64,000 nucleotides of DNA from Liolophura sinensis (taxonomy: Eukaryota; Mollusca; Polyplacophora; Chitonida; Chitonidae), in NCBI RefSeq assembly GCF_032854445.1, contig NC_088299.1, forward strand, positions 16,611,608 through 16,675,607, in the 5' to 3' direction. The stretch's first letter is position 1, and the number at the start of each line of letters is the position of its first letter. The position numbers were made by a program, and so were the translations under genes. Below are positions 3,041 to 59,385 of this stretch, piece after piece. The notes under the pieces are model-generated. The model did no database searches and was not told where the DNA came from. It saw nothing but the letters and a program-made list of their open reading frames with translations.

Positions 3041-3046
3041 TTTATT
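3041..3046 (-). terminator. PFDN4: Probable poly(A) signal of the prefoldin 4 gene
   Basis: TTTATT on the + strand is AATAAA on the - strand. It lies about 220 bases downstream of the prefoldin stop codon at 3267-3269. Confidence 0.5.
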
Positions 3047-3266: not shown

Positions 3267-3468
3267 CTACTCTTCCTCAGCTTCTAGATTGATGTTATTG
3301 CCAAACTTAGCGTACAGCTGAACTTTGAGTTCAGACAGAATTTGTTTATGTCCATCACAGTGTTTCTCTATGGCCTCAATGTCCTTCTGTGTGTTCACTT
3401 TGGCCGCATCCAACATGTTGGAGGTCTCGTCCGGACTCAAGCTTACAAACACCTCACCTATCTGGTAT
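3267..3468 (-). CDS. PFDN4: PFDN4 coding exon 4 (terminal)
   Basis: It starts ATACCAGATAGG, which completes IPYQIG when joined to exon 3, and ends NLEAEEE-stop. It carries the C-terminal helix with the family signature LKVQLYAKFG. Confidence 0.95.
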
Positions 3469-6400
3469 GTGACTGAAGTTAAGGGTTTATCCTGACAGAA
3501 AGGTTAGAGTGATTGATTGATTGACTGATGACTAAAGCTGTACACAAGCATATTTCAGTTACATGAAGATGGTCAGTACCATTGATTGGCAACTAACTGA
3601 GAATAAATCTCTCCCACATGGGATGGAGATTTTCAAATGCTGAATGTTGATGTCATATTGCTGGAAGGCAAATGATCCATAAAGATCATGTACATCATGT
3701 AAGACAACCTACATAGCCTACATGCCAGCAAAGGAGCAGTGAAGATTATATTTCTTAAGGCTGTCCCACTGAAGGAAGACAAGCCCCATGGGATTAATCT
3801 AAGTGAAAAACAGAACTACACAGCACATGTATGGACAAGGTACAACAGTTTCAACTATATTCCAATCAGTTCATTGTACAGGAATTAACCTGTGCAAAAA
3901 TTTTAGTACATGCACTACCTAAATCCAACCAGATTGATATTAATCACTAACGATTATTTTGAAGATCTGTCGAGAAAATCATGCTATAAGAATCCATACT
4001 TTCATTTCAAACAGGTTCCAACCAACATATAAAGAATGCAACAGTCTTTACAGCTATGAAAAAGGATATGGTATTGTATTCTCATCTTCTAACAGCAGTA
4101 ATTCGTCAGATGCATCTTCCAAGTTTTGCAAATCTTTCTGAAAAAAAAAACAAACAAAACAAATAATTCTATATACTGTATAACTGTCTATATACCTGAT
4201 TGTTAGTTTATGCATTTATGCATCCACTGACCAGTATAAACAGGAATGTAGACATGAACAGAACTCTCACCATGGCCAGTGTGTCCAGAGCTAGGGTTCA
4301 CACGAACAGTACTCTCACAATGGTCAGTGTGTCCAGAGCTAGTGTCCACATGAACAGTAGTCTCGCCAGTGTGTCCAGAGCTAGTGTCCACATGAACAGT
4401 ACTCTCGCAAGGCCAGAGTGTCCAGAGCTAGGGTTCACTCGAACAGTACTCTCACCATGGCCAATGTGTCCAGAGCTAGTGTCCACATGAACAGTACTCT
4501 CGCCAGGCCAGTGTATCCAGATGAACAGTAATCTTGCCTGGCCAGTGTGTCCAGAGCTAGGGTTCACACGAAGAGTACTCTCACCATGGCCAGTGTGTCC
4601 AGAGCTAGTGTCCACATGAACAGTTCTCTTGCCAGGCAAATGTGTGTAATTTTGTCCAAAATTAAAGACAAACATATATGAACAATGCTAAAAAAGGTGT
4701 TAACATTGGTATCAAAGAAGAAAACTCATCTTCTTGAATAAAAATTTTTAAAGTTTCTAAAAAAGATAGAATCTGACTTCAAAGTATGATAGCCCTGGAA
4801 GGCTGGCCATTTGTGTCTTGTGCTTGCCCAACATCGCCATGGGTCTGTGCTGTTTTGATTCCATAAAGAAGCTGCTTTTTCCACATGAAGGGTGCTTTCT
4901 TATTTTAAAATGACCTCAAGCATCATTACGATCTGAGTCATCCATGAAATTCTAAGTGGTTAGCTTAATGGCTGAAATCATGGTCCCAGCCTTGTATCAG
5001 GTCCCCATGGCCCTAAGTATAGAGCCATAAGTATGAAGGTTAAGTGTATTCAACTACATGTAGAAACAAACCATAATGCAGGAGAAGAAAAAAAAAAAAA
5101 GACTACCTTTTCAGCAAAAATTACTTTCAAAACTACTGAATATTCTTAGCTACTCTTCTTAGGCTCACTACTTTTTATTGGCTCATCATTACTGGTATCA
5201 CATCATTTAATTTTGTCAATACAAATCTCCTACCTTTTTCGCAGTGAGTTCATCCTTCAGGTCTTGAAGCTTAGCATTGTGTCGTGCAAACTTGTTGATC
5301 TTCTCTTGGTCTTCAAACGTCACTTGCATATCATTATCCTACAAGTCATTCAGACAGAGACATTAACGTCAAGCAGACACACATAACTGTAAATAGTTCT
5401 TACAACATAAGTGACTCAGCAAGGAAGGAACAACAACATGGATCAAGCTAAGTTTCATGTTTTATTTCACGGCTCAGTGTAGCTAAAGGCAAGCAAAGGG
5501 TAGTAGCTCTTCCTCGACTTTTCAGGTCCTCTCATTTCTGACCTGAAAACAAGCATCACCAATTACGCTTTTTAACTCCCTAAATCACAACGGTAGAGTC
5601 CTATTCTGTGCATGTACCACAAAAATGATAGACCTCGTGATCCAGCATTTCCTGCAGTTTGAAACATTTTCTGCAAATCGAAATTGCGAGACCATGCAAA
5701 TCACAGTTATTCTGAATGAGCAACTAATTTGGGTCAGTTTTGAAAGACACAGCAGGCAGAATTTGCTGACAAGGGAGGTAACTGCTGTCAACTGCTAAAT
5801 CTGACTTGGGATGACAGCGTTTCACTATCGAGGAAGAAATAAATCTGTCACCTGTTAGTTGTTACGCTGAAGTAAAAATTAATTTCACATTTTTAAAGTC
5901 TGAATAAAAGATAAGGATTACAAACATTTAAAGAGGCTTACTATTTCAGATGTACTGGACATGTCAGGCATACATTTGTATACATGCCACTGATTCACCT
6001 AAATTAATGCTCAACTTAAAAACCTCTCTTTCCGTTCATCTGAACTCAAGAATCAGCTTTGTCCTTGTAAGTAACTTACTGCTCAGACTATATTTCTTTC
6101 TGTTTTTCAGTGACATTGTTTATAACAACATTTACCGAAGTATCTTCAGAACTTTTGACTTAAGGCTTCAAGGATTAAATAATAACTTATAATAATTATA
6201 ATTAGTCATATTCATAACAAGGTAAACAATTAATCGGAAACTCCTTATAGATACCATATTAGTAAAAAATTTCATTTTCCTCATAATATTTATAAATGAT
6301 TATGTATTCATCAAAAACTAGAAAATTATTACATTATTTATTGAACGTTTTTCTGCCACATCATGTCACAGAGTTGTCAATGTCCCATGTTGTTTCCCTC

Positions 6401-7003
6401 TTCAAAAAGTCGGGTGAACAGATATAAAATGTGTAAACCTTACTTACTGTACAGTAAGAGGCAGTTGTAATGACTGGGGTGACTCTACTGTTAGTCAATG
6501 AGCTCCTTCTCAAATGTTCATTGTAAAAAACTGACTTTTCAATGAATTGACGTCACTTTACCACATGACACCACCATCAAATTTAAAATTCCTTTTCCTA
6601 CTTTTTGTAGCCTTCTAAAATGCGTCCGAAAAATGGGCCACAGCCAGGTGTTAAATCGTGGCACTGGAGGACAAACTGACTCTCCATATCAGCAAAGTAG
6701 ACTTCTTATCCTGTCTAGAGGTGAGAAACTATCAACATGAGTTCAAAAAAATGGTAACTGGATAATCATTTTAAAATGCTTGCCGGTCGCTATTCAGTGG
6801 TCTAGGAATGGACCAATTTTCGCCATCATGTTTCCTTAGTTACACTTGCATTCAAAAGAGGAATTCCAAAATCATTTGTCCATGAAGTTGTATTGATTTT
6901 TTTTAAACGGACATAGTGCTTTACTCTTACTAATGATTCCTTGCTGTGCAGACAGCGGCTCATTTGAAGTAATACTCACGCTGTTTTTCAAGGTAGCAGC
7001 CAT
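3267..7003 (-). CDS. PFDN4: Prefoldin subunit 4, complete, four exons
   Basis: Coding exons on the - strand are 7003-6980, 5338-5234, 4137-4070 and 3468-3267: 399 nt, 132 residues, against 134 in the human protein. Prefoldin 4 is a beta-type subunit of the cytosolic hexameric prefoldin complex, which delivers unfolded actin and tubulin to the chaperonin CCT. The product reads MAATLKNS, then a helix containing VTFEDQEKINKFARHN, then DLQNLEDASDELLLLEDENT, the conserved IPYQIGEVFVSLSPDET turn, and the C-terminal helix ending LKVQLYAKFGNNINLEAEEE. This matches the family end to end, with two coiled-coil helices around a beta-hairpin region. The ATG at 7001-7003 gives the family's typical MAAT start. 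Introns 1 and 2 are GT-AG (donors GTGAGT and GTAGGA). Intron 3 has AT-AC ends and a U12-type donor. The gene is head-to-head with the TMX3-like gene. Confidence 0.95.
3469..4069 (-). other. PFDN4: U12-type AT-AC intron (PFDN4 intron 3)
   Basis: On the - strand the intron begins ATATCCTTTTT (4069 downwards), identical to the U12 donor consensus. It ends TTCAGTCAC at 3469. A branch-site motif CCTTAAC lies at 3484-3478 with the predicted branch A at 3479, 10 nt from the splice. Only this junction restores the conserved IPYQIG in frame, and no GT donor in exon 3 does so. Length is 601 nt. Confidence 0.88.
4070..4137 (-). CDS. PFDN4: PFDN4 coding exon 3
   Basis: It is 68 nt long, starting after a poly-pyrimidine TTTTTTCAG acceptor with KDLQNLEDASDELLLL. 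It ends within the conserved IPY motif (ATA CC), directly before ATATCCTTTTT, a U12 donor. Reading on in frame past this point meets a TAG within five codons, so the exon must end at or before here. Confidence 0.93.
4138..5233 (-). other. PFDN4: PFDN4 intron 2
   Basis: This is a GT-AG intron holding a 48-bp minisatellite at 4240-4640 and an A-run at about 5090-5100. Nothing else is recognised. Confidence 0.75.
4240..4640. repeat. 48-bp minisatellite in PFDN4 intron 2
   Basis: There are about eight imperfect copies of a unit containing 'ccagtgtgtccagagctag' followed by 'ttcacacgaacagtactctc'. The 48-bp unit is a multiple of three, which opens reading frames on both strands (4200-4490 and 4298-4675). 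These are not genes. Confidence 0.9.
5234..5338 (-). CDS. PFDN4: PFDN4 coding exon 2
   Basis: It has 35 codons, phase 0 to phase 0, between a TTGTAG acceptor and a GTAGGA donor. It encodes the N-terminal helix with VTFEDQEKINKFARHN. Confidence 0.95.
5339..6979 (-). other. PFDN4: PFDN4 intron 1
   Basis: The donor is GTGAGT and the acceptor TTGTAG. It contains a very AT-rich stretch at about 6110-6340. No repeat family or gene is recognised. Confidence 0.75.
6980..7003 (-). CDS. PFDN4: PFDN4 coding exon 1
   Basis: It encodes MAATLKNS and ends phase 0 at a strong GTGAGT donor. It is too short for an ORF scan and was found by matching the family N-terminus. Confidence 0.85.
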
Positions 7004-7316
7004 TTTGACAGCACAACTTCGTTTTGTCTCGTTTTTACCATACCATTTGCCAATAGAGGTGAGTTATAGAATAGTCTGGCGTGGAGAGAAATTTGGACGA
7101 ACTTTCTTGATTTTGTAAGAAACAAAATAATAGCAAAATTATGTTTTAATGGTGAAAATACAACAATGTTCTAGGGCCATGGTTGAGTCGGCGGGTATTT
7201 GGTATGAATTATCTAGAGCATAATGCTTCCAGTCCCAGCCGTTGTCAGTAATTGTTAGTTTTCAGCGCGACTACTAATCTAGCTTGACTCGTACCTTTCC
7301 CGTGGCACTCACAACA
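7004..7316. promoter_or_regulatory. Shared divergent promoter interval PFDN4 / TMX3
   Basis: 313 bp separate the two start codons, which point away from each other. Both 5' UTRs and at least the core promoters must lie here, unless a further upstream non-coding exon exists. I see no convincing TATA box for either gene, as expected for housekeeping genes. The extent is inferred from the start codons only. Confidence 0.6.
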
Positions 7317-7356
7317 ATGGCGGCCTTCTTCAAGCTTCTTTGCGCAGTGGTAGCAG
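7317..7356 (+). CDS. TMX3: TMX3 exon 1 (start, signal peptide)
   Basis: ATG in ACAACAATGGCG context, followed by GCCTTCTTCAAGCTTC. It encodes MAAFFKLLCAVVA and ends phase 1 at GTAAAC. The hydrophobic run continues in exon 2, completing a signal peptide. Confidence 0.9.
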
Positions 7357-10300
7357 GTAAACAGCCATGCACGTCGTCTTCTTGTCGCCTATTTCATATT
7401 GCCTAGGTGCATTAGGTCCTTCAGTAACATAACTTTCTGTTTTTGTTGCAGCATTGTTAGGAGGAGTCCGCTGTTATGTGATAGAGCTGGATGACAGGTA
7501 ACTTGCTACTGATGGGGAATGATGGGTTGCCATGGAAATATAGGCCTCGTTACGGTTATTTTTTTTTTTTTGTCACAGGGCGTGACTGTATCAGCGGGCA
7601 CATTGTGATGAGGAGTATTGTTCACTCAGATGAGTTATTTTCTACAGTAACCATACATCACACTAACATATTTTATTTTACGGGTTGAAGAGCAGTTTAT
7701 AATTTATTCCAGTGCTTTGCTCTGAAGGATGCCTGCAAACTCCTTTTCTTGCGCTGACATCATCCTACTAAGCAATGGTTTAGGCTGATTGTCTTTGTGC
7801 AAATAAAAGATATTGAATTTAGCCCTGGATAATTACGCTGGCAGGGGATCGCATAGTCATGGATTGCTCCCATTCAGCTGAAAAAGGAACCATGGTAAAA
7901 TGTCGGAAAGCAGTTGATTATTAACCTTCCCGGCGTGTCTATTCACTCCTTTACAATGCTTAATTTAATTTAGTAAAATCCCGAGCTGTCGATGATCCCA
8001 AGGTGAATATCCATCCATATTTAAGCAACCTCAAACTCTCCGCTGATTCTAAGTTGCCAAAATGGCAGCTATTTCCCGAGTGTCGCGATTGCAAACAGTG
8101 GGCAGGTGTGTCCCAAGAACTAGGATGGTGTATGTGATGGGCGAGGGGAGAAGTTGAATTTGCCAAGCCAGTACAAGAAGCAGAAGTTGAAGTTAATCAA
8201 GGCTAACCACAGTTCATACCTTTGGTCAATTATTCATTACAGTGCAGGATATATGGCAAATGGGAAGAATCAAACACCATGGACATTTCTTCAGGGAAAC
8301 TAAAAAACTTTAACTTGTCTGAGTGGCATTTAGAAGTTGGGATGAAAGTACACTGAACAAGGCATTCTTATGGATATACAACTTCTTGGTTTATTAACAC
8401 AAAGAAGTTGTATATCCATAAGAATGCCTTGTTCAGTGTACAAAACTTTATCATGGATGTTTAAAGTCACACACGTCTTAATGCTATGATATAAAATTTT
8501 CTTATATATAACACTTTATTTCAACTGTATAACCAATTGTCAGACTTGCACATAATTAGATGTTACCTGATTGTAAAGCAGCCAGTAAGCCATTGTGATC
8601 TCGTCAGCGGGTAGGTAATTTGCACATAACTATGGACACAAGACATATTTATTACCATGGTGAACAAGGTCTTGTTGCATGATTTATGAAGTGATATACA
8701 TGTAACAGGTTTTGCTGGGATTCCAGGACTTTTATTTATTTATTTATTTATTTGATTGGTGTTTTACGGCGTACTCAAGAATATTTCACTTATACGACGG
8801 CGGCCAGCATTATGGTGGGTGGAAACCGGGCACAGCCCGGGGGAAACCCACGACCATCCGCAGGTTGCTGGTAGACCTTCCCACTTATGGCCGGAGAGGA
8901 AGCCAGCATGAGCTGGACTTGAACTCACAACGACCGCATCGGTGAGAGGCTCCTGGGTCATTATGCTGCACTAGCGCCCTAACCGACTGAGCCATGGAGG
9001 CCCCCAGGACTTTTAAAAAACATGCAGTCTTTGTACTGATGTCTTGTCTTGACATAAAGATAGGATGTTATGTCTGTGTCGTAAACATGGTGTTTCAGTG
9101 AGACCAGTCTGTTATTAGACTTGCTATGACCAAAGATATAATAAAGGTGTTAAAGCGCAAGGAAAATAAAATAACATGTATAAGCCAAATAATTCCCACA
9201 TGTTTCTGTTACAATGCTTAGTTCTTTGTTATCAAATCTACAAGTACATGTATTGAAAAGTAGCATTTTATTTGTGTTTATAGATTTCTCCAGGTGAAGA
9301 ATCATGGAATGTGGCTGGTGGAGGTAATGTGAATCAGCTCTTTTTTGTTGCAAGGATCATACATAAATGTATTTATTTATTTTTTAATTGATTGGGAGTT
9401 TTATGCAGTACTCAAGAATATCTCTCTTTTTTGATGGCGACCAACATTTTAGTGTTAGGAAAGCGGGCAAAGCTCGTGGAAAAGCCACGACCATCCATAG
9501 GTTGCAGGTTGACCTGCACACATACAATTGGAAAGGAAGCCAGCATGAGCTGGACTTTAACTTATGGCAGTTGTATTGCTGAGAGGCTCTTGGATCATTG
9601 TTCCACACTAAAATGCTCATACATGTATAAATTATTTAATAAATCTAATATCATCAATTACGCCAGCTGATTTACAATACAGGTAAATTTTAATGTGTAA
9701 CGGTGTGTACCAGTAAAATGTTTTTATCTGTTTGTATTTCTAACTCCAGTTTTATGCTCCATGGTGTGGACACTGCAAAAAACTAGAGCCAATCTACCAC
9801 CAGGTGGCACAGACTCTGCGCTCCTCAGATATACAGGTTGCCAAAATTGACTGTACACGATATTCCTCTGTGGCAAGTGAATTCAGTGTCAGAGGTTTCC
9901 CTACAATAAAATTGTAAGTAGCTAGATGGGATGAAATGTTTTATGTTTGGTACACACTAGAAAGACAAGAAAAAGGCTGTGATAATGCCTTTCAGAGATG
10001 TATGTACAGATGTTAAGACCCCCCCCCCCCCCCCTCCAAAGCATACAAAGCGTTGAGATACAGTGATCAGGGTGTCTGTGAGCACTACCTTGTCACTGTG
10101 TGTTTTCCTACAGTTTTGACCTGTTTTTCATGACACTATGTAGGTGTGACATAGATTAAGTAAGGATGTGTATGTACAGTTTCCATCATCTAGTAAACAA
10201 GTCTTACATGTACTTAATTAGTTTAAGCCCATAATGCATAGTGCGTGCAGGCGATAACATTGTTATGGCTTCAGTATGTGAAGTATAGTCCCTATGGAAT

Positions 10301-13300
10301 TCACCATCTCCTGATGGCCCTTGTTTTATATCAACCACTAACGACAATGAGAACAGCAAAATTTCCACAGATCATATGTTTGAGGGTTAATTTTGAAGTT
10401 CATTTTTATGATGGTACTAAAGTAAAATATACTTTATCATAATAAAGGTCATGCATGTGTTTTTAGGTACAGTGTGTGATGAAGAATATTGGCATGTGAA
10501 TTACATGTGCAAGTAATCCTTATGTATTATGTCTTCATATCTTACATCTTTGTATGAACTTGACTTGTCCCACTGAGTTTATCATTTCAGGCTTCTAGAA
10601 ATAGCACAGTGTACATCCAGATCCTTCTTTTGTATATGTATATTTTGATTCGTCGGTTAGTTTGAGGGGTTTTCTTCACACTTTGACTACTTTGATCCAC
10701 CCATAAAGCTTACTACTGCCTTTGTCATGTAATTGAAATATTGTTTGGTTCCAGTGTAAACCCAAATTGAAGAAATAGAGGATATTGCAGATTTCTATAT
10801 GTCATTTCCACTTATCTCCCCCTATACAGTATTAATGGAGAAAACGTCTACACTCACAGAGGAGAACGGTCAAAGGAAGACATCGTTGAATTTGCTGTCA
10901 GGGCCAAAGGGTGAGATTCATGAGCAGTACACTGATAAAATGATGCCCATTTGTGTACCATACTCGCTGGGTATGCTGACATGATGTTAAGAGTTAAGGT
11001 TAGGTGTCATATACAGAGATAGGTGAAGTATGCATAATCGGGTATGGTCCCCCAGCGGTGTATTCCATGGGTGGATCTGAACCAAACTGGTCACCAGAGG
11101 ACATGTTGTCATATCATAATGCTTTGCTAGTCATAATCAGGTCGAGTGAGTTTCGGTACTAGGACGAAGGCCACCAACTCCCAGCAACGTCAGACATTGT
11201 GGCTGCAGTCATGCCACTAGTGGCTGGTGGAACGACTTCCTTAACGGCCACTGCCTCATCAGAGGCTGCTCCGGAGCGAATTGAATGTTGGTCTTGTTCA
11301 TTAAACATATCACTGTTCATAGTATAAACCATTGAAAATGCATCAAATTTCTAGATAACATTAGTGTAACCAAGACATAAAGTACCAAACATAACTAATC
11401 TATCAGTATTGCTTTACTTCCTGTAGTACAGCTTTACATAGGAGTACTGCAAGTATCTACAAAGATTACTGGAGTTTCATCTACAGATTTTATTTGATTC
11501 AGGGAAATAGCTTTTGTAGGGAAAGTTAGGTATTTGAACACCATTCTGTAACATGTTTTTGCTATGGTAGAAACACAGAGCAAAATGCACTATATTTAAA
11601 ATCCACTGAAAGATCTATAGCTTTTCTGGGATCAAGGGAAATAACCCTTGTAGACAAGGGAATGGCAGCTTTGTGAACACTGCTCTACAACATCATTTTG
11701 CTGTTTTAGAGAAACAGATCAAATTGTACTATATGTACATTTCTAACATTCCACGTCTGACATTTGAAAGAAAATTATACAAGTGTACCCTATTCCATTA
11801 ATCTTTGGGATACATCCAGCTTCCTGTAAATACTGTGGTTATATGATTGGTTAAAGTAAAGATGCAGTCCTCCAATCAGCTTGTGTACATGTATCTATTC
11901 CTCTTTGGGATACACCCAACTTCCTGTAAATACTGTGGTTATATGATTGGTTAAAGTAAAGATGCAGTCCTCCAATCAGCTTGTGTACATGTATGATTTA
12001 GTACATAAATTTAACAGAGCCTCAACTGGCCAATAGAGCTAACATGAGGCAGAGCTGACCTCAAGGTCTTGGCAAATGATGTGAAGGACCCTCCATCAGT
12101 TGAAAAATATTGCTTCATAATTAGAGATATAAGTAGAAGCAAAAGCCAAAATTATATGTTTTGTTGTTTTTTTTGTGTTTTTTTTTGACTGACTGACATG
12201 CAGATTGCAGTTAAGTGCTTGGACTTACCAGTGATGTCCAGTGCCTGGTCCAAACACACTTCTTTTTATTCATTGAAAAAAATCGAAGCAAGTAATAGTC
12301 ACTGTTTAAGATATGCTGTAGTGACATCAGTTTGTGGTAAGACATTGGTTTTATATGGAAGTTGAATGATTTTTAACATTGGCATCATTTTTGCACTGGC
12401 ATGTCACTCTGTTGTGTCATTCACATGACTCGTAAACTGTGTATTACATGTATTGTTAGGGGTAGGTTCCAAGGGTGTTTCGACTGATGCTTGCTATTAC
12501 TGAGGCAGACTGTCCCTTTGTCATGATTTTGATCGGGACCGTGACTGGTCTCTCATGGCTCAGCTCATTTTGTCACACTCAAAACGTGTCTAATATGGTC
12601 TGTTACAGAAATATTTGGGGACAGTAAGCATCTAACTTTGCGTCTGTGACTGTATGCGCAACCAAATTTTGTTGGAAGACCATGTCTTTCACTAATGAAG
12701 TGTGCATACCTGTACGTCACACATGGGAATTGCCAAAAGTAACCTGCCAAAGGGTGGTGTTTTACCCTGGGTAACCTCCTTTGCCCATAAAACTTACTGC
12801 CATGGTATGAGCGAAGCATACTTGAGTATGACTTTAAATAACTAAATAAATTTTACTGTAAATTACTAAATAGACAAATAAAACATGGTAGGCTGTGGTG
12901 TAAGTTGGCTTTTGTGTGGGAAGGCAGTACATCTACATGTATAAATAAAACCGTTAGCAGTAAAACATCTTTGTAAGGAGAATATTTTTCAAAGTTGTCT
13001 TTTATAGGCGTGATAAACTGGCTTGTTTCAGGCCAGCTGTGAGAAAACTGAGTAGTATTGGGAAATTTAATGAAGCCAGGGGAGAGCACTCTGATGGGAG
13101 TTTTTTCCTTTATGTTGGGGATGAGGATCCAGAGGCAGATCTCTATGTAAGTACAGATTTACTAAATGTGAACAATGCAGGTGATCAAGACTTGCATGGA
13201 ATTTTTCACCAACTTGTTAAAACAAACTCTGGTAAACAAAGGTGATTTACCTGGGGAAAAATCCTGTGAAGTTATATGTGATTTTAAACTGTAAATCAAA

Positions 13301-16300
13301 TATGCATGTAATTCCACATAACTTAGAACAGAAGGGTGATTAGAGCAAAGTGTCATGGATTTATTAAGTGGGTAACACTTGTTGGAACTAGATACATTAT
13401 TATTATGGTTTATGTGTAGGCCTTGGTGACTGTCTTGAAAAATGTCAAGACAATTGAACTTCAGACATTGTTAAACATCTACCGTAAATGACCATAAATT
13501 TTGTCCATGACTAACTGATTTTGAGAGTTCTGTCGATTTTAGAAAGGTTTTTTGAGGTTTGTTGGGAACTTGGGATGATATTCTACTGGAAAATTGTAAG
13601 TTTCAGCACCAAAAGTAATATTTTGTTACATTTATTTGTTTCTAGAAATGCATTTAATGTGGGTGAAATTTAGGGTACTTGCCAGCTGCTGTTCTTTGTT
13701 GTTTTATTGCAAGGCAGCATATTTTTCATTTCTGCAGTAAATTGTTGTGGCTCCCTTTGCTAGATGGCACATTTTTTGTTTGAGTATGTCTGCCATAAAT
13801 ATAAGTGTTTGGCTGTTTTTATGTTACAGTGTTTGAAGACCTTATGTCACCAATGGTATCAGTTTCCAGCAAATGTCTTCGGTTAACAGTTTAGTGAGAC
13901 AGTTTAACAAGATTCAGTGTTGATAGTTCGCTGTCAGGAAACTCTTTGGAAATTTTCCAGCAAATAAACAATTCACTAAACAAAATTGAGAAGAAAAATT
14001 TAATTGGTGATATGGTAGGTTTGCAAAATCAGATGTCTTTGATTCATTCTTGTGAGAAACATTGTTGGCAGTTTGCCTGAAAGGCTTGAGGAAAAAGCCA
14101 AAGAAACAGTAGCTATGAGCAGCATTACACACGTGTTAGAAAGTGAAAATGAGCTTAAAGTAAAGAATTTTGGCAGTAACAGATATTTTACTGTGCTGAC
14201 ATGACACTTAAGTGTTGTTACGCTGTGCTGACATGGCACTTGTTACAGTTTGCTGATATGACACTTTAGTGCTGTTACACTGTCCTGACATGGCTCTTTA
14301 ATGTTGTTACACTGACATACGCGTGTTATACGTTACATGTGCAGTACAAGTTGTTTGCCATCTGATTGACAAATGGGATTTCAATGTGAAAAGTTCCGTG
14401 ATGTAAAACATGTAGATTTCCATGGTGAAACGACCACATCAGTTTTATTCCCGCTGCTGTTAATATCATAACCTTAAATACCATAGATCACATGCTGAAA
14501 CTTGGTGATCAAGTTGTGACAGTCAGCTCTGGTGGTTGGTTAATTTGCTGCAACTGTTAATCCTTTGACCTTTATCTAACTGCCTTCAATGGTGTATAAT
14601 TCTGAACAATGGCATTAAACACCAAACAAATAAATAAAATAGAATTCAGTTAAAAATGTCAGACTGGTTTTTCTGAGGCACACATTCCTCCAATTTTTCA
14701 TGTTCTCATAGAGTATGCGCTCTCTGTGAAATTACAAATTTTCAGAAGCACAGAGAATTAGAAAACCGGATAAACACCTTTATATTGTTGATTTACTTAA
14801 AAGTATGTGTATAAGTGTAATGTAAAAGATGGTATGTCTAAATGTGTGGTTCACTCTGTATAAATTATTTTCTTTGCAGGTTAAATACTGTGACTTGGCT
14901 GAAAAGTACATTGTGTCTGCATATTTTTACAATGGGACAGATAAAATACTTCCAAAGGTATGTGTCTCTCAAAACTGTTTTTTTTTAATTTTAACATATA
15001 TGCTCAAATATACCTGCAGATGGTCGTGGGTTTCCTTGGCTTTTTCCCTATTTCCTCCCACCATAAGGTTGGCCGCCGTTGTAATGTGAAATATTCTTGA
15101 GTATTGCGTAAAATACCGATCAAATAAATAAGTCAAATAAGTGTATGCTCAAATCAATGTTAAAAGGAGATGGAAACTTCCATAATAAAAAATTAATAAT
15201 TAGTAATGTGTATGAATTCACACGAAGCAGTGGTATTAAAAGTTCCACATACACACACATATTCTAAAGGTTTACCATCCAAATAATATAGCGTTTAAAA
15301 CATGACATTAGAGCCAAAGAAAGTGTTGGAGACAGACCATACTTCATCATTGTTTGTACATTCACATGCTGTCAGGTTTAATGTTGATGATGAATTGCTG
15401 TGAGAGTGAGAGTTAATTGTGTTTGCTAACCCCATGACCCCCATGACCCCCAAGTCACATGACATAATAACCATATCCTGATGGTCTAGTGTGACCTTTA
15501 TAGCAGGAACTGTTCACAGTTGACTGATTACAGTATAGCACACTTAATTGCACAAGTACAAGGTTAATAGTTCTTTGAGACTAGATTCTTTGAAAGGGGA
15601 ATATAAAAGGACTGGTAGCTGTAGTTAGACATGATTGTATGAAGAAGGCAGTTAAGGAGCTATTAACTCTATTTAGAGAACATCTTACAAAAAAGGGCAA
15701 TAAAGGGTTACATGGAACTATTAACTACTTGTACTTGGGAATTGATGTTATAAAGAGGGCAATAGAAAAGGGTTAATAGTAGTTACAGACTAAATTATAT
15801 GAAGAGGGTAATAAATGAGTTAGTAGCCGTTGGAGACAAAGCTACACAAGCAGAACACCAAAGGGTTTGTAGATGTTTGAAACTAGATTATATCAGATGA
15901 CAAGAAAAGATTAGTAGATGTTTGAGATGAAAGCTAACACAAAGAGGGCAGTAAATGGTTAGTAGGTGTTTGAAACTAAATTGTGTGAGATGGTGATCAA
16001 AGATTATTGTATGATAGACAACGACAATAAATGCTGTTTTAGACAAAAATTTTGAGACAGCTGTGTGAAGAGAACAATAAAGGGTTGGTTAGTAAGTGTT
16101 TGTGACTAAATGAAAGATTAATTGATTATTCAAATAGTTGCTGTTTGAGAAAAAGTTGTTTGAGGAGGGCAACAAAGGGTTACTAGTATCTGGTGTTTGG
16201 GCTTCGGCTAAACTACAGTATGTGAGGTTGACAGCAAAGTAGAAGCATCAGAGGCTGAATGGTGTGAAGATACAATAAAGGTATCACATCATTGTGAAAC

Positions 16301-22300: not shown

Positions 22301-25300
22301 ATTAGGAAGTATGCCATAATTGTTGAATATTTCAGGCATTAGCGTGGTAATATGTGCACAGTAACATGGGTATTCAAGTGAATATGTTTTTGAAAAATTT
22401 CAGATGTCCTCACCGTCATCTCCCCAACCCCTTTGAGAATGTGAAAACTCAACATTCCTTAGACTTACAAGCTTATTTTGTTCTAATAAAGACAAATAAA
22501 CAAAATTCTTAAAAAAAAAAAAAAAACAAATTTGTTCAAATAAAGACTTACAAATTCCTTGGTCTGCCCCAGATGTACAGTTAAAGCTCTTGTCATTTTA
22601 ATGCTAAAGATAATGAGGTTAGGATTGATTATAGTGGTTTATTGCATGATGAGCTTACCTGTATGAAAGGTTTACAATTACATCTAGTGAAGTTACCTTG
22701 ATGTGGCGCACATAAAGTCAGGTTTTTATTGACTATAAATTTTAGAGGCTTAAAAGAACAGTTGGGTTAATACTCTATTAAAAGTGAAAAGTAAAAAATT
22801 AACTGGCTGGTTGTTACCTGTAGAAGATATTGTGACGTTCACCTTAGGAGAAATCTTAGGGGATAACTTTGTCAACTTGACAGTTACTACCCTGCTCTAA
22901 TCTATCAGGAAGCCTGATAGATGTGAGAGCTAATTTTACCCTGCCCTCTTCCACCGGTACCTTACTGACCTCAGCTATACCGTCGGCTAACCTTATTTAT
23001 GGCTTTATGTCATTGGTAAATTGGTTTAAAATGATAGCTTTTTGTGTTCTTCACTACATTTACAGATTTAGAATCTGTTAACTCTTCTGAAGCTGTTTCA
23101 TGTTTTGGATACTTTTACAGTTATTATAGTAAAGTTTGGGTTTCCTTTACCTCATATTTTCCACGCCTTGATTCTCTCTCCTAAAGCCTTCCACCCCACT
23201 CCCTCCACCTGGGATGAATTCCAATGAGGGTTAATCATAGTATGTTTTGAGTCCTGAAGGTTAGGCTATTTTCTGTGTGAATTCCACCTTAGAAGTGATG
23301 TCGTTGAATTGTCGGGGCGTGGACGTCAGGACGTCTGGGAAGCCAATGATGTCAAATCTGCAGGCCACATGTATGTGCACCCTTGACATGGATTTAGTGG
23401 TAAAAGTGGGTTCCAGTGTCACAGTGTTCACCGTTTGTAGGAATGTCGCCAGGTCGGGGCGTGGCCTTCATCTGCCACAGTTGCCTCACCCCCTCCCCAT
23501 CGTCACATTTACAGGCTTCCTACCGTCACCTCTCCTACCTGAGCGTGACATTTTGATCTGGAAAATGCTTCAGACGATCCGAGCAGGATATGTTCTGCAG
23601 GCCTGTTTGTTCTGTGTACTTTTAAAGGTAGCTGTATGTCAACAGGCGATGTGTGAGGAAGAGAGATAGTCTCCACAGTGTTGTTGGTGGTCTGAAAGTG
23701 AAATGCTATTTTCCAGGTACATGCATGAGGTTTGTTGACGCATACAATATTGCCATATTTTTGACATTTATAGTTTAGGTCAAACATAGGCACAGGTGTA
23801 TTACATGTATACTGGTACACTCATGACCTGAGGAATGTCAGTAGGTACAAACACACTGATTGTGCTACACTCATATGTTACTTGAAAAATGGAAAAGACA
23901 GCAACATTATCACTCATTCTGAAGAACAAAGGAAGTTACAGATGGTGTAGGAACATTATCACTTGTAAATGTTCCTATCTTATACACATAGTTTGAAGAA
24001 GAAAAAATGTTACTGGTGGTACAGGGAGATGATCACTGGTGCACTCACACTTTGAGGATTAAGGGAAGTTGCTTATTGTACACATTTTTACTGGTATACA
24101 CAACCTGAAGAATAAGGGAAGTTACTGATGGCACAGAGACATTATCTCTGGTACAGGAACATAATAACTGGTACAGGGACATTGTCACTTGTATATACAC
24201 AACCTGAAGAATAAGAGAAATTACAGATGGTACAGGGACATTATCTCTGGTACAGGAACATAATCTCCGGTACAGGGACATAATCACTTGTATACACACA
24301 ACCTGAAGAATAAGAGAAATTACAGATGGTACAGGGACATTATCTCTGGTACAGGAACATAATCAGTGGTACAGGGACATAATCACTTGTATACACACAA
24401 CCTGAATAAGAGAAATTACAGATGGTACAGGGACATTATCACTGGTACAGGGACATAGTCACTGTTACTGATGGTACAGAGACATTATCTCTGGTACAGG
24501 AACATAATCAGTGGTACAGGGACATAATCACTTGTATACACACAACCTGAATAAGAGAAATTACAGATGGTACAGGGACATTATCACTGGTACAGGGACA
24601 TAGTCACTGTTACTGATGGTACAGAGACATTATCTCTGGTACAGGAACATAATCAGTGGTACAGGGACATTGTAACTTGTATACTCACAACCTGAAGAAT
24701 AAGAGAAATTACAGATGGTACAGGGACATTATCACTGGTACAGGGACATAGTCACTGTTACTGATGGTACAGAGACATTATCTGTGGTACAGGAACATAA
24801 TAACTGGTACAGGGACATTGTCACTTGTATACACACAACCTGAAGAATAAGGGATGTTACTGATGGCACAGAGACATTATCTCTGGTACAGGAACATAAT
24901 CTCTGGTACAGGGACATTGTCACTTGTATACACACAACCTGTAGTATAAGGGAAATTACAGATGGTACAGGGACATTGTCACTGGTATGCACACAGCCTG
25001 AAGAATGAGGGATGTTACTGATGGTACAGAGACATTATCAGTTGTATAGGGACATAATTACTGGTACAGGGAAATAATTACATGTACAGGGACAGGGACA
25101 TAATTACTTGTACAGGGACATAACTACTGGTACAGGGACATAATTACTGGTACAGGGACATAATCACTGGTACAGGGACATTATCACTGGTATGCACACA
25201 TCCTGCAGAGTAAGGGACGTTACTGATGGTACAGGAACATTACTGATGGTACAGGGACATTATCACTGGTACAGAGACATTATCACTGGTTTGCACACAA

Positions 25301-28300
25301 CTTGAAGAATAAGGGACGTTACTGATGTTACAGAGACATTATCACTGGTACGGGAACATAATCACTGGTACACGGACATTTATCACTGGTATGCAAACAA
25401 CTTGAAGAATAAGGGACATTAATGATGGTACAGAGACATTATCACTGGTACAGGAACATAATCACTGGTACAGGACATTATCACTGGTACAGGGACATTA
25501 TCACTGGTACAGGGACATTATCACTGGTACAGAAACATAATCACTGGTACAGAGACATTATCACTGGTTTGCACACAACCTGAAGAATGAGGGATGTTAC
25601 TGATGGTTCAGAGACAATATCAGTGGTACAGGAACATAATCACTGGTACAGGGACATTATCACTAGTATGCACACACCCTGAAAAATAAGGGACATTACT
25701 GATGGTACAGAGACATTATCACTGGTTTGCACACACCCTGAAAAATAAGGGACATTACTGATGGTACAGGGACATTATCACTGGTACAGGAACATAATCA
25801 CTGGTACAGGGACATAATCACTGGTATGCACACACCCTGAAAAATAAGGGACATTACTGATGGTACAGGGACATTATCACTGGTACAGGGACATAGTCAC
25901 TGTTACTGATGGTACAGGGACAATATCACTGGTACAGGAACATAATCACTGGTACAGGGACATAATCACTGGTATGCACACAACCTGAAGAATAAGGGAT
26001 ATTACTGATGGTACAGGGACAATATCAGTGGTGCATGTGTTTTCAGAAATTGCCTTGTGTGATGTATAGAGTGGGTGCATCAGCACTGTGAGTGTTTTCA
26101 CAATCAAGTGTCATCTGTATTAAAGATGAATGGGTTTGGCCTGGATGTCTTGCAGAAGTTGATGAATTCTGTCTTCCCAGATCTGGCAAGCACATCATGC
26201 CAGTATGTTTATAACATGTGGTGTTAAATAAACAGTAAAAGATGTGGATTTAGGAACACAACACTTCACAAACATAACAACATTTTCTTTTTATTTCTGC
26301 TCAATTCTTCAGCTCCACTTAAATCATTGTTGGCAGTGTTGAACAACAAATGAGGCAGTGTTTGTACAGGGTAGTGTTCCCAAACAATGAATTATCCAAT
26401 GTTCTTAAACCTCTCAACATACAGTAACCATTTGTTTCCCAGTATTGGAGCAGTTTTCTGGGTTACCTGTCATTAAGTTCCAAGGGTACTAAGCATGTCA
26501 CTTACAAACCATGATATTCAAGAGTTATCACAGGCATAACAACTGAGTTCAGCCTCAATACAAAGTGTGGACAAGAGCAAAGACTTATAGAAATTGACAG
26601 TTTTAGTTGAAAGAGACAGAGCATTTCAAGAAGGTTGTGTCGATCACAGGAAAAACAACTAGTCAATTATTAAAGCATTAATACAATCTTGACGAAAACC
26701 AAGGCTTGTAGAAAGTGACGTACAGTTTTAATTGACAGAGACAGAACTTCTTAACAACATTATGTCAATAACAGGAAAAAGCAACTGAGTTCAGCAGTTA
26801 AATATAAGGTCTTGACAAAAAAAAAGAGTTATAGAAATTGAATTTTTTTAATATGTACATTTAGGCAGAACATCCTATAAAACATTTTCTCAATTGAGAC
26901 AGATAGAACGTGGGATCCTTGTGTTACCAACAGCATAAATTTCATAAAGAACTATATATGACTCATTTTACAGATATACTTAGTTGGTTTACATCAAGGT
27001 TCTGACAGAGCATTGGCTATTTTACATATAACTACTTATAATTGTATTTGTTGGGTGATAAATGTACATAGCCTACTACTGTGAATGCAACAGAACAAAC
27101 CATTGCACTTACACATTGCTAGACACAATTAAAGTTGGTTTCTTCAATGGATATTGAGTATTTGGGTCTTAAAGGCACATAATATGGAGTAGATTTTTGT
27201 TGCATATTTAGTGTTTCAACAAATCTTACTACCTACATGTGGTAGTAACAATGGAGGAACATGAATGGCTATGGTTAATCCTGACTCAATACAGGTGAGG
27301 CTGGCTGCTCGTGGCTGAGGAGGCCTGTCTGGCTAGCACTAGGAACCATGTGCTGATGTAGCGTGCCAGCTTCTCCAGGGCTCCTTTACATTGAACACCA
27401 CTCTCAATGCTCCCTCAGGAAACAAAGGACAGTTTATGTAATCTGGTGTTAAGTAGAAATACATGTGATAGAAATTCTCACATGGCGTCACACCCACTGC
27501 TGGGCTTCAGAGTCTCCAGACACTACTGGCAGCTAGAATGGCGAGCATTTGATTTGCAACTGGAATATAACAGGGGAATAACAGGGATGTTTGGGGCTGA
27601 AGTCAGCAGTTAAAGGGACAGAGACTGTAAGAGAGAGACCAGAGTTTTAATGCTATCTCAGCTGCTGCAGACTTCAGAAATGTAGTATGTGCAAAATATG
27701 AACTAAGGGTGCAGTGTTTGAATTCAGTATGACTGCATATAAAGTAAACATGTACTGGATTCAAGTTTTCTTTTGCGTATCAGATGTCCATGAGTTTGGT
27801 TCAATCTAGAAATCCCCCATGTCCCTGTGTTTTGATCTCCATTGATCTGGCAGTATAAACTGGATATCACAGAAACATATAAGACATAATAGACAATGCA
27901 AACATACAGACAGAAATTTGCCAGACATTTCAGCATGTGCATCTTTGAGGTATACAGTGCTTTGTAATCTTCCAGCCTAAGTTATAAAGGAACAGTTAAT
28001 AAATCCCAGCAATATCTGCTGGCATTCAGTGGAAAGGTTTAGCTGTAATTGTACTGCTTGATTGGGCTATATGTGTATAGGGTAGAATGATCAACAAAAA
28101 ACTCCAGCAGAATTAAGCTGACAAGGTCAAATATAGCTAGTATGTGTGCATTTGTTTGTTGTCAGTAAGCACCATCATTATTACTTTTGTTCTCTGTCTA
28201 TCTTGGTACCACATTACTGTGTCTATCTGGGTACCACATTACTCTGTCTATCTGGGTACCACATTACTCTGTCTATCCTGGTACCACATTATTCTGTCTA

Positions 28301-31300: not shown

Positions 31301-34300
31301 TTACAAGATTCTTAGGCTATATTAATAGTTTTACAGAATTCATGGAAACTCCTGTGAAACTGACATTCGTCAGCCGACAGCCCTCAACCAATAAGGCTGT
31401 TCCAGATCAATAATCACAAGGCCAATTCCCAAAATGACATGTAACACAAACGACCAAGGAGCTGAGAATGTATATAAAGTAGGAAAATAGGACAGAATGG
31501 TGCAGAGAGAAGCAGTCAAGAGTTTTCAGTGACTTTAGAAAGACACAAGATATGTTCCTGACGACTGAGTGAAATCAGTATTCAAATCGTGTAAGTTGTC
31601 GATGTAAAAGTATGTATCCCAGTTGCACTTTGATTGCAGCTGTTCGTATAACCAATTAACGTGGCAATCTAATACCACATGAGGAGTGCAGAATTCCTAG
31701 GTTGACCTATGTCCCCATGGTTGTTACATTCACTGACTTCTGGAGTTCTGACCAGACGTCCAGTCCAGATTCCACATTTTAAACCCCTCTTTGTGTCTCT
31801 CTGTAAATAAGTCACAAACTCTTCCACGAGTATGGTGTCACCAGTGAAGTAGGTGAATCAGACCTCTGAGTACATTCAAGACACTGAGATACTAGGGATG
31901 ACTGATGTAATACCAGCTACCAACTATTGGTCAGTTCTCCAAATCCTGATCAACAAGGATCCAATCTCCAAATGTCTGCCCTTATGAATGACCTCTCCCA
32001 CCAAAGACATAAATAAGAAACAATTGATCTATATGACAACTGCCAGTGCAATCTAATTGATGATTAGTGACTAGGCAAGGCACAAAATGTCAGTCTCTCT
32101 ATCAGTATTAAATGTTTGGTACAACCACCACTTAGGAAACCCAGAGTGAACCAGTCCAGATGATAAATGACCAGAAAGCTAAACACACCAGTGGAGCATT
32201 TCACAAAGCACACATAATGTTAGGACTGCACACAAAGAAAATTGGAATTGAATTTCCAGGAGTGATCAAACAAATACTTTTCTCCACAGTCGACACAAGA
32301 AATTGATGTTTTAGGGTGGATATAACAGCAGACTTCCAGACAGAACAGCCCAGTAGGATTTTTCACTTTGAGGATTGAACATCAGTTACCCTATATCTTC
32401 TAAAATTTTGGACACCTAATTGCACTAAACATATCTGTCCAAAATGTTAGGCGGTAAAGTTCAGAAATTGTTGAAAATAGACCCTAATGTTTAATTTGAT
32501 TGATCTGCTTCCTCCATTATCACTCCATTGTACACTATCTATTACAACTTTACTTGGCTTATAGCCAATGGGTATTATAGAACATTTGCATATAAATACT
32601 TTGTCGTGTCCATTCCACAGTACATAAACCAAATGGAAACTGTGCTATAATGCTTGGCATCACCCGTGTGTACCGTAGTTGTGTTTTCATGCGAACGCCG
32701 CAATGCAGATATGCACACTTCATGAATTTCGGGGTTTGTTATATTAGCTAATGACTGCCCTGGTAACGTTTCTTTCCTGCATTAGTGTTCCACCCATAAA
32801 CAAGCAACTTTTAATTTTAGTTTTTTAAGTAACCAAAAGGTTTATAATTGAACCCAAATGGCTGTTCAAGAAAAACAAGCAGCAAGTGGAAGAACTGAAA
32901 GCTATAGGCATAAATGACCAAATACAGATGGAACTTATAGTCTTAAGAATCTCCATCTGCGGCGGAATTGAAAACAGAGTGGATTCTCTGAAATTAGGAC
33001 ATGCTTCTGCTTCTCAGAGGATTGTGAAATAGTCTGAAATTAAGACATCTTTCTGTTTCTCAGAGGATTGTGAAACAAATTTGAAATTGAGACATGTTTC
33101 TGTTTCTCAGAGGATTGTGAAACAAATTTGAAATTAAGATATGGTTGTGTTTCTTGAGGTTTTGTGAAGCAAATTTGAAATGAAGACATGCTTCTGTTTC
33201 TTTACAGGCTTGTGGGGAATTATTTGTTAGGATAGTTTGGCCTCTAGAATTAGCTACATTAAGACCATATGTTACCAGTTGAAGCCTTCACTGGCTACAT
33301 TCCATAAGTCTTTTCCCAGATTGTCTTAATTAATATCAAAATCTACTTTGTTACACGGTTGCATGTTTATTTATCCACTTGCCAGATGGGTTTTCTTCAG
33401 ACATTAATATTGTTGCCTGAAGGTTAGCCTGTTCTGGCCTGGTAATGAATAAGTGTCTAAATTTGATCAGGGCTTGGATAAGAGACAGTATCTACTCTAA
33501 TTCTTCAATTTTTTTCAAACATTGAATCAGAATCTTTAGACATTATTCTGTGTTGTCTGATAAAATTATACTTTTTGTCAAGTCCTGAAACTGGCTAATC
33601 CAACTAATATAGTTTTGTCTCCAAATCAAATTAAGGATGTGCCAAAATTCCACTGAATCTTCCACTTTCATCATGTTCATATGTGACAAAGTTAAGGACT
33701 TTTTGTCAAGTCCTGAAACTGGCTAATCCAACTAATGTAGTTTTGTCTCCAAATCAAATTAAGGATATGCCAAAATTCCACTGAATCTTCCACTTTCATC
33801 ATGTTCATATGTGACAAAGTTAAGGACTTTTTGTCAAGCCCTGAAACTGGCTAATCCAACTAATGTAGTTTTGTCTCCAAATCAAATTAAGGATGTGCCA
33901 AAATTCCACTGAATCTTCCACTTTCATCATGTTCATTTGTGACAAGGTTAAGGAATTAGAGTTAGCCTGGTTTAACACCAAACTTCACAGGTTCAGTAAA
34001 TTGTCAAATGTTTTTGTCCCTAAGAAAACACTACTTAATTATAGCATTTATTTTTCTTAAGCAAATACAAATTTTTGAGCAAAGAAACTTGAAAGTTTCA
34101 TGAAACAGTGTCCAGAGTAGATTTGTGATATTTGAAAACTACGTGAACATACTTCCACATGCTAGCAGATGTGGTTGTAGCTTGTAGCTAAGCATCACTG
34201 ACATTTTGGAGACTTGTATTCATGTATTCCTCTTTGTATGAAGTTATTTTTGACAAAACACATCAAGAAATATGGATTCTGTGTGAATGACAAGAAAAGT

Positions 34301-40300: not shown

Positions 40301-43300
40301 GTAGAGGGAAAACTGAAGAAAAGCAAGCTTGTAAATCTTCATTGTGCTGTTTGAGCAGTTTTGTTCCTGCTAAGTAAAACCCTGTGCTGCTTTAAGAACT
40401 TAAGATTCAGTTTTAATTGGAAAGGTATGCTGAGTTTTGTTGTAAGGACACAGACAGTGAGTTTTGTTGTAAGGACACAGACAGTGAGTTTTGTTGTAAG
40501 GATATAGACAGTGAGTTTTGTTGTAAGCACACTTACAGTGAGTTTTGTTGTAAGGACACAGACTGAGTTTTGTTGTAAGGGCACAGACAGTGAGTTTTGT
40601 TGTAAGGACACAGACAGTGAGTTTTGTTGTAAGGACATGGACAGTGAGTTTTGTTGTAAGGACACGGACAGTGAGTTTTGTTGTAAGGACACGGACAGTG
40701 AGTTTTGTTGTAAGGACACAGACAGTGAGTTTTGTTGTGAGGACACAGACAGTGAGTTTTGTTGTAAGGACATACACAGTGAGTTTTGTTGTAAGGACAC
40801 AGACAGTGAGTTTTGTTGTAAGGACACAGACAGTGAGTTTTGTTGTAAGGACACGGACAGTGAGTTTTGTTGTAAGGACACGGACAGTGAGTTTTGTTGT
40901 AAGGACACAGACAGTGAGTTTTATTGTGAGGACACAGACAGTGAGTTTTGTTGTAAGGACACAGACAGTGAGTTTTATTGTGAGGACACAGACAGTGAGT
41001 TTTGTTGTAAGGACATACACAGTGAGTTTTGTTGTAAGGACACAGACAGTGAGTTTTGTTGTAAGGACACAGACAGTGAGTTTTGTTGTAAGGACACAGT
41101 GAGTTTTGTTGTAAAGACACAGACAGTGAGTTTTGTTGTAAGGACACAGTGAGTTTTGTTGTAAGGACACATACAGTGCACATATTAGTTTGAATGGCAT
41201 TGAATGTCGACTTTTTGATACATTCAAGTACTTACAAGCTATGTTAATGAGCAAAGTAGACTGCAGTTCTGGGGGAAAATACTTTAGGAGAGTTTTGCTC
41301 CTAAGATTTAAGTTTTGATTACACAAGGGTCTACATGATGTATCCAGGAGCAGTTGTTAGAAGACAGTTTTATGATGGCTGGTGATGTAGCTTAATATGT
41401 GTCAGGGAACCAGGCATCCATGTAGGCCATCACATAACGGTAATTGTTCTGCACTCTGAGGGCATGTCTGAATGTAGCTGGTGATGCAAAAGCCTGTGTG
41501 TGTGTGTGTGCATATACCCTAAATCGCCTAAATTTCCTCCACAGAAGTGCATTTTAGAGGCAAATAAATGTCACAAAATATTATTTTTGGCACTGACAAT
41601 TTTCCAGTAGGGTATCATCCCATGTTTTAAGCAAACCTCAAAGCGCCTTCCTAAAACCAGTAAAACTGTCAGAATCAGCAATGGACAAGCCAGTGATGTC
41701 TTACACATACAAGATTGTCCACATACTTAAGGTAATAAGTACAGAGTTGAGTTCATGTGTACCAAACATAGCAGTCCTCCCACCACATTCCCCTGTGCAC
41801 ATGTGTCCATTAAGAAATCCCTGTGACAGTGTAAGAATGACTGCTTGGGTCAAACAGATGCTTATCAGTACATAGTCAGCATAGTTCTGCTCACTACCAG
41901 GAAGTGGAGGAAAAAGTGGGAATCCAAATTTAACCCCCAAAATAAACGTGGGGAATGTTGTACCTGTAGAGTGGTTATAATTGATGTTACCTGTTAGCTA
42001 CTCTGTGCCGTGACCATTCTAGTAAAACCCCCCAGGCATGCTGTTACCTCGTACAGCATGCTGATTGATATCTGAGAGAACACAAACTCTGACAAGGTGT
42101 TACTCAGGTCAATGGTTTGTGTGTACATATACACACAGGCCCCTGTCTCTAGAAATATGAGTATTTGATAACTTATACAAAAACAGACAAGGTTTACAGA
42201 ATTTCAAAAGATGGGAAACAGACAAGGTTTTTTATTGACATGAATTACAGGGATAAAAATTTCAAAAGATGAGTTACAGATGGATGATTTGGCAATGATG
42301 TGAAAACAAAATGAACCAAGGACCAAGGGTTCCTGGCTGGCCTATTCACCTAAAGTGTTCTCTCTACAGCTAATGTGCCATGTGGCCACTGCCTCAGGCT
42401 CAAATCCAGCACTTGCTGCTTTTGGTGTGATGGATAAGCCAGACAGTGTATCAGGTGAGCTAGTACCTTAGGCCTAGACACAGTCCATTTTCTTCCGCTC
42501 TGATTTTAATCCTGACCACGACTGTACATGTATATAAAACACCCAAAACTTCTGGAATATGGCATGAATCAAGTAACACTAATGAATAAGTAAAAGTTGT
42601 GAAAGGGTGATGAGTGAAATGTTACCAGCCAGATGGTCCCAATAAACAATACTGAAGTGCTGAGAATGACACATAATTACAAATGTCTTAAGTCCGTTTT
42701 TCCACTAATTGATCACACAGCTCTGTGGTATTTGTAAGTTCAGCTTTATGTTAAGAGAGTATGGTCTTGTCAGTAGCTCAAGTTGTCTAGAGCTTAATAT
42801 GGTAAATGACAACTTCAAAATCTTTTTCATAAAGTTACAGAAGATGAATTTATTCACTGCATGGGAAAAGCAAAGTGATTAATTTAAGACCTCGACCTGT
42901 GAATCTTTAGATTCCTGGAAATGCTATGACTGGGTACAAACTACTAAATCTATGTTGGTACACCAATAAGCTTAGTGTAGATACTCCGAAAAAACTGAGC
43001 AGTCAAATATTTGATCTTTCAATATTCTGACCAAATTTTATTTGTCATCTTCAGTATACACACAAAAGAACTGAAATGTCGCAGTTTTGACGTTTCAACA
43101 TTTCGAGACAATTTTATTTGTCATCTTCAGGACGTGTAGACAAATATTGAAACATCAGATATGCGATGTCTTAGTTTCTTTGGAGTATCTATGCTTTTGC
43201 ATTGTTTTAAAAGACTACAACCGTCTGATAATGTCATCAAGCATCGATCTGTGATCGTGGTAGGTTAATGCCCAAGGTAGTCTGTAAAACATTCCACATT

Positions 43301-58300: not shown

Positions 58301-59385
58301 GCACATCACTAGAAGAGGCACTTAAATGTATGCTTCCAAAGACCACAGAAAGGAAAAGGTGAATGTGGCCCAGCTCATTTATGTGAAGTGTGGAATAGGT
58401 GAATGTGGCCCAGTTCATTTATGTGAAGTGTGGAATAGGTAAATGTGACCCAGTTCATTTATGTGAAGTGTGGAAAAAGTGAATGTGACCCAGCTCATTT
58501 ATGTGAAGTGTGGAAAAGGTGAATGTGACCCAACTCATTTATGTGAAGAGTTGAAAAAGTGAAAGTGACCCAACTCATTTATGTGAAGAGTGGAAAAGGT
58601 GAAAGTGACCCAGCACATTTATGTTAAGTTTGAAAAAGGGAAATGTGACTCAGCTCAGGTATATGGAGTGTGGAAAAGGTGAAAGTGACCCAGCTCATTT
58701 ATGTGAAGTGTGGAATAGGTGAATGTGGCCCAGTTCATTTATGTGAAGTGTGGAAAAAGTGAATGTGACCCAGCTCATTTATGTGAAGTGTGGAAAAGGT
58801 GAATGTGACCCAACTCATTTATGTGAAGAGTGGAAAAGGTGAAAGTGACCCAACTCATTTATGTGAAGAGTGGAAAAGGTGAAAGTGACCCAGCACATTT
58901 ATGTTAAGTTTGAAAAAGGGAAATGTGACTCAGCTCAGGTATATGGAGTGTGGAAAAGGTGAAAGTGACCCAGCTCATTTATGTGAAGTGTGGAATAGGT
59001 GAAAGTGACCCAGCACATTTATGTTAAGTTTGAAAAAGGGAAATGTGACTCAGCTCAGGTGTATGGAGTGTGGAAAAGGCGGAAGTGACCCAGCTCATTT
59101 ATGTGTAGTGTGGAAAAGGTGAATGTGACCCAGCACATTTATGTTAAGTTTGAAAAAGGGAAATGTGACTCAGCTCAGGTGTATGGAGTGTGGAAAAGGT
59201 GAAAGTGACCCAGCTCATTTATGTGAAGTGTGGAAAGTTAAATGTGACCCAGTGCATTTATGTGGGAAAGTTGAGGAAGTAGTAGTGTGTGAATATGTAT
59301 CTATAAATATGGGATAAATATGGCTTATTACAGTATCACATGCTTCAGCTAAAATAAGGAACATTAATTTGAATCTGAATCTGAA

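Follow-up and report, generated by a model that had tools for sequence, protein, structure and literature searches.

PFDN4, as modeled on the minus strand of a 64-kb window (the whole stretch of DNA analyzed here), carries a third intron that begins with AT and ends with AC. Is this an intron of the minor (U12-type) spliceosome, or can the conserved protein be reached by another junction? An earlier note on this DNA had proposed that the junction restoring the IPYQIG motif has AT and AC ends, that the donor matches the U12 consensus, that CCTTAAC lies 10 nt before the acceptor, and that read-through meets a stop at once; coordinates and motifs proved exact on all four points. Judged from its sequence, intron 3 is very probably a U12-type AT-AC intron, and no other reading was found that would use known splice signals and still give the conserved protein. 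We infer actual splicing from what can be read in the DNA directly, namely, the junction, the signals around it, the lack of a canonical alternative giving the protein, the snRNA genes, and their complementarity to the intron.

The PFDN4 gene model and its third intron

The model comprises four exons and 133 codons including the stop (Table 1). Its frame is open throughout all four exons, and the protein reads MAATLKNSDNDMQVTFEDQ...ENTIPYQIGEVF...NINLEAEEE, then stop. Without exon 1, this protein aligned with the solved prefoldin subunit 4 of 7wu7, which we take to be the human subunit (121/124 residues; E = 8.9e-40), with one single-residue gap two residues ahead of PYQIG, and it matched Pfam Prefoldin_2 (E = 1.2e-22). 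Exon 1 is predicted from a script search of positions 5381-14000 for short exons combining an ATG with a GT donor; among the five candidates, this one was picked because its start resembles that of human PFDN4, presumably MAAT.

Table 1. Features of the PFDN4 model, with positions in the window
Feature	Position	Strand	Remarks
Exon 1	6980..7003	-	MAATLKNS, then GTGAGT; script search; inferred
Intron 1	5339..6979	-	GT-AG, 1641 nt, major type; hinges on predicted exon 1
Exon 2	5234..5338	-	Alignment to prefoldin subunit 4; recovered again by genome search
Intron 2	4138..5233	-	GTAGG...TTTTTTTTTTCAG, 1096 nt, GT-AG, major type, pyrimidine tract
Exon 3	4070..4137	-	3' end ...AATACAATACC
Intron 3	3469..4069	-	Probable U12-type AT-AC, 601 nt, phase 2; last intron within coding region
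U12-type 5' splice site	4061..4069	-	ATATCCTTT, then TT; fits RTATCCTT
In-frame TAG on intron 3 retention	4054..4056	-	Read-through gives IPYPFS, then stop
U12-type branch-point motif	3478..3484	-	CCTTAAC; presumed branch A at 3479
Intron 3 3' splice site	3469..3470	-	AC
Exon 4, coding part	3267..3468	-	Alignment to prefoldin subunit 4; stop TAG included
Possible polyadenylation signal	3041..3046	-	First AATAAA past the stop

The U12-type 5' splice site consensus is RTATCCTT, and the U12-type branch consensus resembles TTCCTTRAY and lies near the 3' end of the intron. Intron 3 starts with ATATCCTTTTT (longer stretch, ATATCCTTTTTC) and ends with CCTTAAC-TTCAGTC-AC (longer stretch, AAACCCTTAACTTCAGTCAC), the presumed branch A being 10 nt from the last intron base. 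One point against the assignment is that the two bases upstream of CCTTAAC are AC where the consensus has TT. By eye, the pyrimidine tract before the terminal AC is absent (...CCCTTAACTTCAGTCAC), in contrast to intron 2, whose 3' end is a long T run followed by CAG. Joining 4070 to 3468 gives ...ENTIPYQIGEVF... and restores the conserved protein. The earlier note had further called AT-AC introns a small minority even among U12 introns. A minority they are, but not an exotic one, because roughly one in four human minor introns is of this type (24% in PMC8280824 and ~26% in PMC10639083).

A search of the genome with PFDN4 returned three matches, each an exon of the window gene; a second gene copy was rejected on this result, and no processed copy displaying the spliced form was found in this search. 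Exon 4 was also scanned against prokaryote and viral contigs, with stray eukaryote contigs as the target; 60 and 6 stretches fitted a pattern, and none was confirmed as a PFDN4 relative.

Alternative junctions and chance matches

Which other junctions could join exon 3 to exon 4? In a scripted enumeration, the donor could lie anywhere from exon 3 through position 3501, and the acceptor had to follow by 40 nt or more and fall no later than the end of exon 4. With any dinucleotides allowed, 6112 donor-acceptor pairs hold the frame open to the normal PFDN4 stop codon. The exact protein came from only seven junctions, all slides of a single one (CA-CA, AT-AC, TA-CA, AT-AT, TC-TA, CC-AC, and CT-CC), with identical mRNA in five and synonymous mRNA in two. 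None of the seven is GT-AG or GC-AG, which bears out the claim that no GT donor gives the conserved protein. Since the junction slides over seven positions, the AT-AC register is chosen by the signals and not by the protein alone: it is the only one of the seven that combines termini known for minor introns with a U12 donor in register. If an annotation pipeline were restricted to GT-AG and GC-AG introns, its PFDN4 prediction would either stop at IPYPFS or lack conserved residues.

Splicing of the native transcript at a canonical GT-AG or GC-AG junction, with a variant subunit as the product, is very improbable, as is the coexistence of both forms. Twenty in-frame canonical junctions are possible in principle, and impairment of the minor spliceosome can shift human minor-intron genes to alternative major sites (PMC8034651, PMC8280824). 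However, every one of the 20 costs the protein at least 8 residues by replacement or deletion, whereas splicing at AT-AC recovers the conserved sequence in full; canonical splicing of intron 3 was rejected on the grounds that all 20 damage this region. A minor side form from a canonical junction may nonetheless accompany the AT-AC form. We give equally little credence to an intron that is AT-AC in sequence and removed by the major spliceosome (U2-type AT-AC). Such introns have precedent, with 85 "major AT-AC introns or related subtypes" in print (PMC8280824), but the donor and the branch motif of PFDN4 intron 3 are both U12-like, the pyrimidine tract is missing, and the genome holds minor snRNAs. 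Least credible of all is an assembly error or a non-functional copy with the true gene elsewhere: gaps and withheld stretches in the genome sequence could hide a second PFDN4, for which no positive support was found, but the genome search recovered the window copy only, split into exons as expected and with an open frame through all four.

Could the signals of the proposed U12-type intron have arisen by chance? The donor alone is unremarkable, as ATATCCTTT was found once in the 64-kb window against 0.79 expected. Over 313,414 positions, counted on the two strands of the window and of the ten loci L012-L021 (L018 and L021 overlap by 301 bases), it occurs twice, both times as an intron donor (PFDN4 and IPO5). 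The branch motif was found at 123 of 38,016 AC/AG sites. Treated as independent, donor and branch motif would come together at the junction fixed by the protein with a probability of ~1.4e-7, a rough figure that is inflated because true introns are included in the counts; chance was rejected at this junction on the strength of that figure. The pattern of branch motif plus AC is commoner than expected in the window (14 versus 5.88, with 14 reached in 1 of 100 shuffles), so the branch motif alone is weak evidence. The excess is due in part to a 128-bp tandem repeat at 33570-33954; on the minus strand, each of its three copies contains CCTTAAC-(TTTG or CTTG)-TCAC, which mimics a U12 branch site followed by an AC end.

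Minor-spliceosome components and other predicted minor introns

An AT-AC intron had been taken to imply a working minor spliceosome, with a genome search for U11, U12, U4atac, and U6atac proposed as the check. All four snRNAs were matched above the Rfam cut-offs outside the window (U12, 132.1 bits; U6atac, 100; U11, 94.2; U4atac, 86.5), and the implication is further upheld by minor-spliceosome proteins and additional predicted minor introns, as described below. There are two matches for U11, one for U4atac, and two for U6atac; for U12, three matches score 127 to 132 bits, one lies just above the cut-off (54), and one just below it (52.2). Five snRNA loci that were rescanned with all of Rfam kept their names. 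Four of the U12-like matches, two strong and two near the cut-off, fall within 18 kb (G000:C1:65318678-65336263) and are perhaps a small family with decayed copies.

In the usual model, U11 and then U6atac pair with the U12-type donor, and U12 pairs with the branch motif and bulges out the branch A. For PFDN4, U11 and later U6atac would pair with TCCTTTT of the donor, U12 would pair with CCTTAAC with the A at 3479 bulged out, and the minor spliceosome, with CENATAC favoring AT-AN introns, would join 4070 to 3468 to yield the IPYQIG segment. In runs without controls, the 5' end of U11 (AAAAGGG) formed 7 pairs with TCCTTTT, one of them G-U, and U6atac AGAAAGGA formed 8 pairs with TCCTTTTT, again with one G-U. 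Likewise without controls, TAAGG of U12 formed 5 consecutive pairs with CCTTA, with one more past the bulged branch A by eye, and the U4atac-U6atac duplex reached -34.6 kcal/mol.

Protein components were also searched for. The CHHC zinc finger zf-U11-48K gave four close matches on contig C3 (L017, G000:C3:3160500-3170000), which we left uncounted because the model also rings in 1 of 14 prokaryote controls and the finger is present in other proteins as well; the gene is either SNRNP48 or another CHHC protein. Weaker evidence comes from Ubiquitin_4, which we take to be a domain of SNRNP25, with one partial match (39/89 positions and one internal TAA). PDCD7 gave two matches (E = 1.5e-6 and 6.7e-4). 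CCDC84 gave four exon matches within 7 kb of each other (E = 5.5e-18); its product is CENATAC, an AT-AN-specific factor that reportedly promotes minor introns of this subtype (PMC8280824).

Six gene regions outside the window (loci L012 to L021) were then considered, and in three of them we predict a minor intron built like that of PFDN4: IPO5 (AT-AC), VPS35, and VBP1/PFDN3 (both GT-AG). The six are a non-random sample, because VPS35 and IPO5 were picked as human minor-intron genes named in papers. Removal of the intron restores a protein that aligns with the solved Importin-5, VPS35, and prefoldin subunit 3, respectively. The IPO5 intron (ATATCCTTTTG...CCTTAACCTTTGTCAC; L021) shares with PFDN4 intron 3 its first ten donor letters (ATATCCTTTT), a CCTTAAC nine bases before the exon, a GTCAC end, and a next exon that starts with AT; it differs in phase (1 versus 2) and length (643 versus 601 nt). 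Intron 21 of human IPO5 is U12-type AT-AC (PMC8280824), and the intron seen here may sit at the same position. The introns of VPS35 (GTATCCTTTAC...CACCTTGACACGCCCGCCCTCCAG; the acceptor is the best of five in frame by protein fit) and VBP1/PFDN3 (GTATCCTTTTT...CCCTTGACCGCTTGCCCAG; 1090 nt; L013, G000:C1:55150500-55158500, minus strand) likewise have U12 anatomy, with the donor GTATCCTTT and a branch motif near the end, but unlike PFDN4 intron 3 they have GT-AG termini and the branch motif CCTTGAC.

No clear minor intron was seen in the URI1-like, UXT-like, and CHHC regions in a scan without worked-out gene structures; it would miss CCTTGAC branch sites, because only CCTTAA(C/T) was allowed as the branch motif. 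A search with PF02996 aimed at PFDN5 gave three hits, one of them VBP1 (confirmed by alignment) and the other two URI1/UXT-like and, by their sequence, presumably URI1 and UXT; PFDN5 of this genome was not found by this single domain search. Human PFDN5 is treated as a minor-intron gene (PMC8034651, PMC10853781) and is named in a primer table (PMC12332006). Like PFDN4 as read here, it encodes a prefoldin subunit and has a minor intron, but the subunit is a different one. The predicted minor introns of IPO5, VPS35, and VBP1 fit a minor machinery in general use, and relative enrichment of minor introns has been described for molluscs and arachnids (PMC10639083). One genome is documented here with minor snRNAs, proteins of the minor spliceosome, and four minor introns by prediction.

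None of the papers listed by our text searches describes PFDN4 as a gene with a minor intron; PFDN4 may well already be present in supplementary tables or intron databases, which lay outside the scope of these searches. Where papers contain both PFDN4 and U12, the two terms occur without connection (as variance symbols and a gene locus, or in two expression tables). A text search for VBP1 with "minor intron" likewise found no paper. It is well supported that PFDN4 intron 3 is an ordinary minor intron of a well-known kind, for which these searches found no PFDN4 report.

Possible retention of intron 3 and the prefoldin pathway

It had also been suggested that slow splicing may control PFDN4 output. 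Slow removal of intron 3 is plausible, since in human cells the basal retention of AT-AN introns is relatively high (PMC8280824), and control of output by slow splicing would be consistent with this and no more. If the intron were retained, the codon CCA would be followed by Y-P-F-S and a stop, and the second half of the subunit would be lost; the PFDN4 level might be affected. By the usual rule, a stop with no later exon junction is left unflagged for decay by that route. Intron 3 is the final one in the coding sequence. A copy that keeps it would have no later junction, barring an intron in the 3' UTR, and would therefore escape decay by that route.

Minor introns are predicted in at least two prefoldin genes of this genome, AT-AC in PFDN4 and GT-AG in PFDN3/VBP1. 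TCP1 is a chaperonin gene. In humans, minor introns of TCP1 and PFDN5 are in print. Since prefoldin and chaperonin genes carry minor introns, it is conceivable, if improbable, that minor-spliceosome activity, chiefly U6atac and CENATAC, sets a common level for the whole prefoldin-CCT folding pathway. Under such coordinate control, retention of the last PFDN4 intron would yield a truncated subunit, with no exon junction farther on to trigger decay, and protein folding capacity would be open to adjustment through minor splicing.

Several repeats were noted in the window. A minisatellite with a 48-bp unit (4252-4637) lies within the second intron of PFDN4; it starts 115 nt upstream of exon 3. Long tandem arrays are located at 24098-26032 (units of ~20 to 158 bp), 40431-41178 (27 bp), 58352-59264 (40 bp), and 62667-64000 (36 bp), the last extending to the window end.
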